Origin: Lysobacterales bacterium | GTDB taxonomy: Bacteria; Pseudomonadota; Gammaproteobacteria; Xanthomonadales; BPKI01 | Length of the DNA: 64,000 bases | Assembly (NCBI GenBank): GCA_026005055.1 | Contig: BPKI01000001.1 | Span: 1,426,001 to 1,490,000 of the forward strand | Direction of reading: 5' to 3' | Shown here: piece after piece, positions 9,967-12,138 of the stretch | Numbering within the stretch: position 1 is the first letter of the stretch | Layout: the number at the start of each line of letters is the position of its first letter | The notes under the pieces: generated by a model | Told to the model about the DNA's origin: nothing | The model's database searches: none | Seen by the model: only the letters and a program-made list of their open reading frames with translations | Program-made: the position numbers and the translations under genes

Positions 9967-12138
9967 GTGTCGCTCTCCTTCGCCACGGTGCTGCTCCTCG
10001 CCCTCTGCGAGGCGGCGCCGTCCGCGCCCAGGGCGGAGTGGCTCGGCGGCTTCCACTTCGACGGATTCGGTTCGCGAGTGCGCGCTCTGGCCCGTTTTCG
10101 CGGTCAATGGGTCGCGGCGGGCGATTTCGGCGCGATCGGAACCGCACTCGTGCGTCACATCGCCCGCTTCGATGGGCAGCGCTGGATGGCGCTCGGCGGG
10201 CCCGCGGGGGTCGGCACCGACGCCCAGGTGACCGCTCTCGCCGAATACGACGATCGCCTGTGCGCAGGCGGATTCTTCCGCGAGGCGGGTGGGATCGAGG
10301 CGCAGGGCGTGGCCTGCTGGGACGGGGAGCGGTGGTGGCCCCTGTCAGGGCCCATCGGGCAGGGCGTGGACAATGCGGTCCATGCCCTGAGCGTCTATCG
10401 CGGGGAGTTGGTGGCGGGCGGCTGGTTTGGGTCCGCGGGCGGGGTGCCGGCCGCGAACATCGCCCGCCACGATGGAAAGCGCTGGTGGCCGCTCGGTGAG
10501 GGTCTCGACAATCCGGTTCTCTCGCTCGCGGTCTTCGGCGATCGGCTCTACGCCGGCGGCTGGTTCACGTCCTCGGCCGGCTCACCGCTCTTCCGCATCG
10601 CCCTTTGGGATGGCCGCTCTTGGTCGGCGGTCGAGGGCGAAGGGGCGGGGGCGAACGGAGCGGTCAATGCGCTGCTTTCCACCCCGGAAGCCCTGCTCGC
10701 GGCCGGCGAGTTCTCGGAGATCGGGGGCGTTTCCGCCCGACGCATCGCCCGCCTCGATTCCGGGGGCTGGCGCGCGCTGGCGGGGCCGAGCGGAGAGGGG
10801 CTCCACGGCACCGCGCTCGCGCTCGCGCGAGGTCTCGATGGGCTGTTCGTGGGTGGGCTCCTGCACATGGCCGGGCAGCAGCCCGTTCGGCATCTCGCCC
10901 GTTTCCAAGGCGGTACGTGGTGGCCCATCGGCGCGAATGCGAGCGAGTGGTTGGATGGGCCAGTGCGAGCCTTGGCGGCCGATGGCGGCATGCTGCTCGC
11001 GGGCGGTGATTTTTCCCGTGCGGGCGGGCTTGCGAAAGCACGCATCGCACGCTGGGAGGGCGGGCAGTGGCAGGGCCTCGGTCCGGATGCGAGGCATGGT
11101 TTCGATCGAGGCGTGCTCGCGCTCGCCGAGTGGCGGGGAAAGCTGGTCGCGGCGGGCGAGTTCGCGCTCGCCTGGGGTGAGGCCGCCTCCGGCGTGGCGG
11201 TGTTCGACGGCAGGCGTTTCCACCCCTTGCGCTCGGTGCCCGAAGTCGGCTTCGATGGGCCGGTCCATGCCCTGGTCGAATTCAGGGGCGAGCTGATCGC
11301 AGGCGGTGCATTCCTCCACGCCGGCGGAGTCAGGGCGCCTCATCTCGCCCGCTTCGACGGCGAGCGCTGGCATCCGCTGGGGATGCCGGATGGTGCGGTT
11401 TACGCGCTCGATGCCGACGGCGAGGCGCTCTATGTCGCCGGTGCATTCTCGAGGATCGCCGGGCTCGATGCCCGGGGGATCGTGCGTTTCGACGGAGGCA
11501 CCTGGAAACCTTTGCTGGGTCCGCAACCGGAAGGGCCGAGCGGTCCGGTTCTGAGCGTGCTGCTCGCGCCGGATGGGGCGCTTTATGCCGGCGGCGTGTT
11601 CACCCGTGCGGGCGGGATCCAGGTCAACCGGATCGCGCGCTGGCACGCCGGATCCTGGCATCCGCTGGCCGCACCCGGAGGCGTCGGCGTCGGCAACGCC
11701 GTGCAGGCCCTGTGCTGGTGCGACGGCGCGCTGTACCTCGGGGGCGGCTTCGGCTCGGCCGGCGGGGTTGCGGTGCGCGGGATCGCCCGCTGGGATGGTC
11801 TGGCCTTCCACCCCCTCGCCGGTGGCGATGGCTTCGGCGTGGACAGCGGGGTGGCCGCGTTGCTCTGCACGCCGGACGGTGTGGTGGCGGGCGGAGAGTT
11901 CACCCAGGCCGGGGGGCGGGCGGCAGCACGCATCGCGCGCTTCGACGGGCGCGAATGGATCGCGCTCGCAGGGCCTTCCGGCCAAGGCCTGAACGGGGCC
12001 GCATGGGCGCTGGCCTGGCACGATGGTCGCCTCTTCGTCGGTGGCGACTTTGATCTCGCCGGCGGCCGCCCGAGCGCTTTCATCGCGGCCTACGGCCTGC
12101 CGTTTGCGATCTTCGCGGACGGCTTCGAGGCGCCCTGA
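9967..12138 (+). CDS. Secreted 14-repeat propeller-like protein with C-terminal FADGFE motif
   Basis: A 723-residue protein beginning with a hydrophobic signal-like segment (LSFATVLLLALCEA, residues 2-16; no basic n-region) and consisting almost wholly of about 14 imperfect repeats of 45-52 residues. Each repeat contains an ALA-YRG-L-AGG-F--AGG core followed by an IARWDG--W-PLG strand, like delta-60/kelch-type repeats that fold as beta-propeller blades. Cores end near residues 55, 97, 150 and so on to about 703. The chain ends IFADGFEAP; this short FADGFE-type tail is one I associate with secreted Xanthomonadales-like proteins. No enzymatic domain is seen. GTG start, with only a weak Shine-Dalgarno, 5 bases after the oxygenase gene. 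The function is unknown; an extracellular or outer-surface binding role is an inference. Confidence 0.8.
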   Translation: MSLSFATVLLLALCEAAPSAPRAEWLGGFHFDGFGSRVRALARFRGQWVAAGDFGAIGTALVRHIARFDGQRWMALGGPAGVGTDAQVTALAEYDDRLCAGGFFREAGGIEAQGVACWDGERWWPLSGPIGQGVDNAVHALSVYRGELVAGGWFGSAGGVPAANIARHDGKRWWPLGEGLDNPVLSLAVFGDRLYAGGWFTSSAGSPLFRIALWDGRSWSAVEGEGAGANGAVNALLSTPEALLAAGEFSEIGGVSARRIARLDSGGWRALAGPSGEGLHGTALALARGLDGLFVGGLLHMAGQQPVRHLARFQGGTWWPIGANASEWLDGPVRALAADGGMLLAGGDFSRAGGLAKARIARWEGGQWQGLGPDARHGFDRGVLALAEWRGKLVAAGEFALAWGEAASGVAVFDGRRFHPLRSVPEVGFDGPVHALVEFRGELIAGGAFLHAGGVRAPHLARFDGERWHPLGMPDGAVYALDADGEALYVAGAFSRIAGLDARGIVRFDGGTWKPLLGPQPEGPSGPVLSVLLAPDGALYAGGVFTRAGGIQVNRIARWHAGSWHPLAAPGGVGVGNAVQALCWCDGALYLGGGFGSAGGVAVRGIARWDGLAFHPLAGGDGFGVDSGVAALLCTPDGVVAGGEFTQAGGRAAARIARFDGREWIALAGPSGQGLNGAAWALAWHDGRLFVGGDFDLAGGRPSAFIAAYGLPFAIFADGFEAP
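10075..12095 (+). repeat. 14 tandem imperfect coding repeats of about 145 bp
   Basis: At protein level the AGG-F core recurs 14 times (for example CAGGFF, VAGGWF, YAGGWF, LAAGEF, LAGGDF, IAGGAF, YAGGVF, VAGGEF, FVGGDF), each followed within about 12 residues by an IARWDG-like strand. Repeats 6 (FVGGLLHMAGQ) and 8 (VAAGEFALAWG) are the most degenerate. DNA copies have diverged, so recent slippage is unlikely. Boundaries are approximate. Confidence 0.8.

Follow-up and report, generated by a model that had tools for sequence, protein, structure and literature searches.

A short terminal tag on exported proteins of Lysobacterales and its association with a second type II secretion system

The window considered here, that is, the whole 64,000-nucleotide stretch of Lysobacterales DNA that was analysed, carries a gene for a repeat-rich, probably secreted protein that closes with the short peptide IFADGFE. 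Its features, numbered from the first position of the window, are as follows.

9967..12138, + strand: coding sequence (723 aa, GTG start) for a putatively exported 14-repeat beta-propeller protein with a C-terminal tag
9967..10032, + strand: probable signal peptide, residues 1-22 (hydrophobicity heuristic; core at 4-13); uncertain, as the n-region has no basic residue
10060..10104, + strand: N-terminal part of a split (velcro) blade, residues 32-46 (repeat HMM)
10105..12027, + strand: 13 complete propeller repeats, residues 47-687 (repeat HMM; DUF5122)
10045..11070, + strand: N-terminal half, residues 27-368, predicted to be a closed seven-bladed propeller (AF2, structural matches)
11071..12114, + strand: C-terminal half, residues 369-716, inferred to be a second seven-bladed propeller from its 41% identity to the N-terminal half; not folded on its own
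12028..12093, + strand: C-terminal part of the split blade, residues 688-709 (repeat HMM)
12109..12129, + strand: terminal tag IFADGFE, residues 715-721, followed by AP and the stop (translation, pattern scan)

A sequence-only reading of this DNA had counted 14 propeller-type repeats, and the count holds. A repeat HMM derived from the protein's own sequence recognises 13 full repeats of ~50 aa each at residues 47-687, together with a fourteenth that is divided between the two ends: residues 32-46 correspond to its last third and residues 688-709 to its first 22 positions. Thirteen full repeats and one split repeat amount to 14 units with the velcro-type end-to-end closure typical of propellers, and the 13 (+1) arrangement is kept in seven relatives. 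The Pfam DUF5122 beta-propeller model (PF17164) matches nine stretches (E 8e-27, 93.7 bits against a gathering cut-off of 27); no relative in the PDB was found by sequence. The same reading had described the repeats as showing little sequence drift, which is an overstatement: the two halves of the protein are 41% identical, and the DNA repeats of the main family are at most 78% identical.

It had also proposed that the 14 repeats form two seven-bladed propellers rather than one irregular fold, and modelling favours this. Prediction of the whole 723-residue chain with AF2 and no alignment was unusable (pLDDT 46.7), but residues 27-368, aligned with the C-terminal half, gave a model with pLDDT 77.4 and pTM 0.85, predicted to be one closed seven-bladed propeller. 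The closest structures are virginiamycin B lyase (2z2o, Z 25.5) and the highly repetitive 2ymu (Z 25.0), both seven-bladed propellers, with the tandem-propeller sensor BT4673 and RACK1 among the further top matches; Foldseek also yields propellers. The whole protein as a double (7+7) propeller is supported, with the second ring inferred from the identity between the halves. Since the cut was placed at seven repeats, the model indicates that seven repeats close well and does not exclude other blade numbers. The tandem seven-bladed propellers 2ymu and the BT4673 / BT4663 sensor domains are comparable in that their 14 blades fall into two sets of seven (7+7), and the N-terminal half matches them at Z about 24-25, but the protein described here differs from them in its DUF5122/kelch-like repeats of ~50 aa, with AGG-F and IARWDG-W motifs. 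Its secretion, which had been assumed, is probable without being assured: there is a strongly hydrophobic stretch at residues 4-13, yet the n-region has neither Lys nor Arg. In the absence of better evidence, its own role is guessed by default to be binding or scaffolding outside the cell.

The IFADGFE end is present as read, with Ala-Pro and the stop after it, and it is not confined to this protein. The pattern FxDGFE occurs at 19 sites in the 2.44-Mb source genome (both strands), against none for the reversed control pattern, and 16 of these sites lie 0-4 residues before an in-frame stop. If Asn is allowed in place of Asp, the genome encodes 20 C-terminally tagged proteins, 19 of them in addition to the propeller protein, and nearly all begin with a signal-peptide-like segment, in keeping with the suggestion that the tag marks exported proteins. 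Signal peptides were judged only by a hydrophobicity heuristic, not by SignalP, and the heuristic is too permissive to estimate what share of the secretome is tagged. The tagged peptidases and enzymes include three S8 peptidases (subtilases), an M28 peptidase, a glucose/sorbosone dehydrogenase (GSDH) and an Exo_endo_phos nuclease; SpoIID-like, LamG lectin and CCP_MauG di-haem cytochrome proteins, VPS10-like and DUF5122 propellers and others make up the remainder. There is next to no doubt that the tag is real and occurs far beyond chance.

Three further proteins of the source genome carry the tag directly after the signal peptide instead of at the C-terminus (...LSAQ-PIFADGFE, ...GAS-PIFASGFE and ...ASR-TIFESGFD). 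The PIFASGFE and TIFESGFD proteins are homologous neighbours of other tagged genes. Two homologous proteins bearing FASGFE and FESGFD right after the signal peptide (L088:10538-12275 and L092:9877-11677) are each encoded in a conserved pair of genes, with a C-terminally tagged gene close by. Elsewhere, two adjacent ORFs (L089:2471-8158) correspond to one tagged protein in L128, and the gene appears to be split or frameshifted in the former genome. Tandem tags are found at single C-termini in L133:4369-4968, L054 and L205, for example IFKNGFESDIIFKDGFE.

Taken together, 135 tagged C-termini give the consensus D-[LIV]-I-F-x-D/N-G-F-E. The motif usually closes the chain or has xP behind it, although part of this set was preselected on the criteria of Ile preceding Phe and an immediate stop. 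The x position of FxDGFE is free (A, K, E, R, S and others). When 111 tagged C-terminal regions were compared with NCBIfam, matches included choice_anch_Q (18), choice_anch_J (4) and choice_anch_D (1), as well as myxo_dep_M36 (9) and rhom_dep_M36 (7), the last two counted separately and perhaps overlapping in membership. Depending on the lineage, choice-of-anchor domains are followed by one sorting signal or another, as the name implies, and a tag that stands behind them thus occupies the place of a sorting signal. No curated terminal-signal model was among the matches listed for 11 source-genome proteins (E up to 10) or among the 25 most-matched families for the 111 C-termini (E up to 0.1).

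The tag had been read as a sorting or maturation signal, and its position after choice-of-anchor domains agrees with sorting. Maturation, in the form of a signal cleaved by a sortase-like enzyme, would also suit that position and the Pro-rich linkers that often precede the tag. However, the tag region has no transmembrane helix, basic tail or Cys, and in nearly all cases only 0-4 residues follow the motif, so a segment for membrane retention is missing; no NCBIfam sorting model is among the matches listed; and some copies stand directly after signal peptides, at what would be the mature N-terminus. Cleavage by such an enzyme is accordingly very improbable, and the occurrence of the tag at either terminus and in tandem favours a recognition peptide over a cleavage site. 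Among the recurrent neighbours of tagged genes there is no sorting enzyme, only pairs of ECF sigma factor and kinase genes. Serine/threonine kinase genes, often beside an ECF-type sigma factor gene, recur near tagged genes on Marinicella-like and Dokdonella-like contigs (L149, L159, L162, L193, L196, L202, L216 and L235), and possibly regulate the tagged secretomes.

Across Lysobacterales, genomes divide into those with many copies of the tag (up to 77) and those with a background of 0-2, the reversed control giving 0-3. In a scan of named genomes, long tagged ORFs with signal peptides were found in Dokdonella, Tahibacter, Marinicella, Chiayiivirga, Pseudofulvimonas and Lysobacterales MAGs. 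A few loosely named proteobacterial MAGs, such as Sedimenticola, Alcanivoracaceae and Oceanospirillales, are also tagged, with misbinning not excluded, and matches in Bacteroidota, Bacillota and other phyla are mostly tiny chance ORFs. The tag is well maintained where it occurs. Among relatives of the propeller protein, all 12 for which the stop codon can be seen finish with the tag or one of its variants, as had been predicted for its orthologues, and so do 28 of 30 GSDH orthologues at ~40-50% identity. In AT-rich genomes the codons of the tag are AT-rich too, which argues for selection on the protein level. One genus (g9) uses the variant FxD[R/S]FE, with up to 83 copies per genome; it had been considered a counterexample to the association described below, with the secretion system and few strict tags, until this variant was found there.

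Searches for GspD reveal two type II secretion system (T2SS) secretins in tag-rich genomes. One belongs to a second, PDZ-bearing system, here called T2SS-A, comprising gspCDE plus gspGHIJKLMN. In a tree of 80 GspD sequences, its secretins form clade A (n=29, support 1.0), to which every sampled tag-bearing genome except one (G062) contributes a single copy and tag-less genomes none; several ORFs in the tree were mis-extracted (G115a, G050a, G012a, G312b and G000b), and the clade A result is independent of them. The closest outsiders are second copies in tag-less genomes of family f2, which are possibly Xcs-type. Xps-type GspD is present in tag-bearing and tag-less genomes alike. In T2SS-A, GspC combines an HR domain with a PDZ domain, whereas XpsC, its Xps-type counterpart, has a single helix and no PDZ domain (PMC11981180). 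The source genome has two sets of T2SS genes, and its T2SS-A is divided between two loci, gspCDE at about 565.2-569.5 kb (G000:C1) and gspG to gspN at about 2090.7-2096 kb. The second locus was assigned from its ORFs by eye, and so were the genes that flank gspCDE(F) in many genomes, rhlB/trx/rho-like on one side and ftsEX/rpoH-like on the other.

Counts tallied by hand from tables link this system to the tag. Nine or more strict tags occur in 61 of 298 genomes, and 59 of the 61 have T2SS-A, 58 by the GspD profile and one (G113) by GspC; the last had been taken for an exception until its GspC-A was found. Of the 237 remaining genomes, 216 lack T2SS-A and 21 have it. Among the 21, 12 belong to the genus with FxD[RS]FE, one (G063) has a dehydrogenase ending in FAHGFE, one has 7 strict tags, and four have intermediate scores. 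Fisher's test gives p ~1e-41 without correction for relatedness and 3e-14 with genera counted once, and the pseudopilin GspG of T2SS-A follows the same pattern. On the Xps-type part of the GspD tree, T2SS-A and the tag are absent in about four separate places, which would reflect about four parallel losses. Four tag-less genomes of family f12 (G171, G309, G216 and G257) have GspD scores between those of the T2SS-A and Xps types. In one 4.7-Mb genome of the order (G018, f8 g16), neither T2SS was detected and there is no excess of tags.

With only about four losses, other genes can share the profile of the tag, and GSDH does, being missing from tag-less f2 and f12 genomes. It might thus be that the tag is a near-neutral terminal module, copied among secreted genes and lost along with many others in crown Xanthomonadaceae and Rhodanobacteraceae. 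Such hitchhiking is barely plausible, however, given that the six-residue motif is kept in GSDH orthologues at about 40-50% identity, that the tag spans unrelated families and base compositions, and that it shifts to a variant throughout a genus.

Exceptions run in both directions: two genomes (G062 and G092) have real C-terminal tags yet lack GspC-A, GspD-A and GspG-A, and three (G081, G276 and G198) have the T2SS-A GspD and essentially no strict tags. The link is therefore strong rather than absolute, and it remains correlative, without data on physical interaction or secretion. The two tagged genomes without T2SS-A would be easier to understand if the tag were a periplasmic quality-control or holding signal, recognised by a chaperone or protease that keeps cargo competent for export, and periplasmic PDZ proteases typically bind short termini of hydrophobic/acidic character. 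To our knowledge, though, such proteases are near-universal in Gammaproteobacteria, while the tag is restricted to lineages with T2SS-A, and a role of this kind is distinctly improbable.

The systems that the tag most resembles are anchoring and sorting signals. GlyGly-CTERM, the rhombosortase signal, is likewise terminal, follows a linker and is common to many unrelated exported enzymes, and in other species it sits on the same host regions as the tag (the C-terminal part of M36 peptidases, ExeM); its cargo is exported by a T2SS (PMC3237569, PMC13393428). It differs in having a Gly-rich motif, a transmembrane helix and a basic tail and in being processed by a rhomboid protease, whereas the tag has none of these segments and can be N-terminal. 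PEP-CTERM/exosortase and MYXO-CTERM/myxosortase signals share with the tag their dozens of copies per genome, genus-wide use and location after choice-of-anchor domains, but the tag lacks a hydrophobic segment, Cys and an arginine cluster, and has no NCBIfam model among the matches listed. The T9SS C-terminal domain also directs many unrelated proteins across the outer membrane from a C-terminal position. Used in Bacteroidota, that signal folds as a domain of about 80 residues, in contrast to a tag of about 9 residues in Gammaproteobacteria; the regions before the tag are diverse, and no folded sorting domain is among the Pfam/NCBIfam families listed (the 25 most-matched for 111 C-termini).

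The main rival to an export signal for T2SS-A is surface retention. Once the protein has been exported through one T2SS or the other, a receptor would bind the tag, or a modifying enzyme attach it, at the outer membrane. Its place is that of PEP-CTERM, GlyGly-CTERM or MYXO-CTERM anchors in relatives of the same domains, and both the tandem tags and the tagged genomes without T2SS-A would be compatible with this. Against anchoring stand the lack of a transmembrane helix, Cys or basic tail, the mere 0-4 residues after the motif, the N-terminal copies and the near-perfect co-occurrence with the second T2SS, and it is judged unlikely, if still a serious candidate.

An export signal for T2SS-A is the best explanation, although the odds that it is correct are only about even. 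What has been observed directly is that the tag exists, where in the chain it lies, that families unrelated to one another carry it, that relatives keep it and that it occurs together with T2SS-A; recognition by T2SS-A is inferred from these patterns, with no secretion or interaction data. Under the export model, Sec would move the tagged protein to the periplasm, where the cargo domains would fold, in the case of the propeller protein into two seven-bladed propellers. The exposed terminal tag would then be recognised by T2SS-A, and the folded cargo carried through the secretin and across the outer membrane. The docking site could, speculatively, be the PDZ domain of GspC or the periplasmic domains of GspD, both of which have been implicated in cargo choice by T2SSs (PMC12369372, PMC7949064). 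Canonical PDZ binding of a free carboxylate does not fit a motif that is followed by 0-4 residues or lies at the N-terminus.

The T2SS determinants available for comparison, the loops of PelI/Pel3 and the Ig fold of VesB with the PDZ domain of EpsC, are structural and cargo-specific, whereas the tag is linear, though the same class of machine is proposed to read it. According to the literature, a linear signal shared by T2SS cargo has yet to be identified (PMC12369372, PMC7949064, PMC11981180). The tag is absent from the NCBIfam and Pfam matches obtained, no model found in either describes it, and no paper describing it was found in the open-access literature, where literal tag strings had no match and "DGFE" matched unrelated papers only, among the matches listed. 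It may be, and this is put forward more tentatively than export by T2SS-A as such, that the tag is the first conserved linear T2SS signal, six to nine residues at either terminus that alone would route folded, unrelated cargo to one of the two T2SSs in a cell.

How a T2SS chooses its cargo is an open question, and a tag that tracks one of two such systems across an order would make it directly testable. The tag is thus a candidate for the long-sought linear signal of a T2SS. Even if another factor reads it, the tag marks out dozens of secreted proteins in each genome, in lineages where many of these have no known role.
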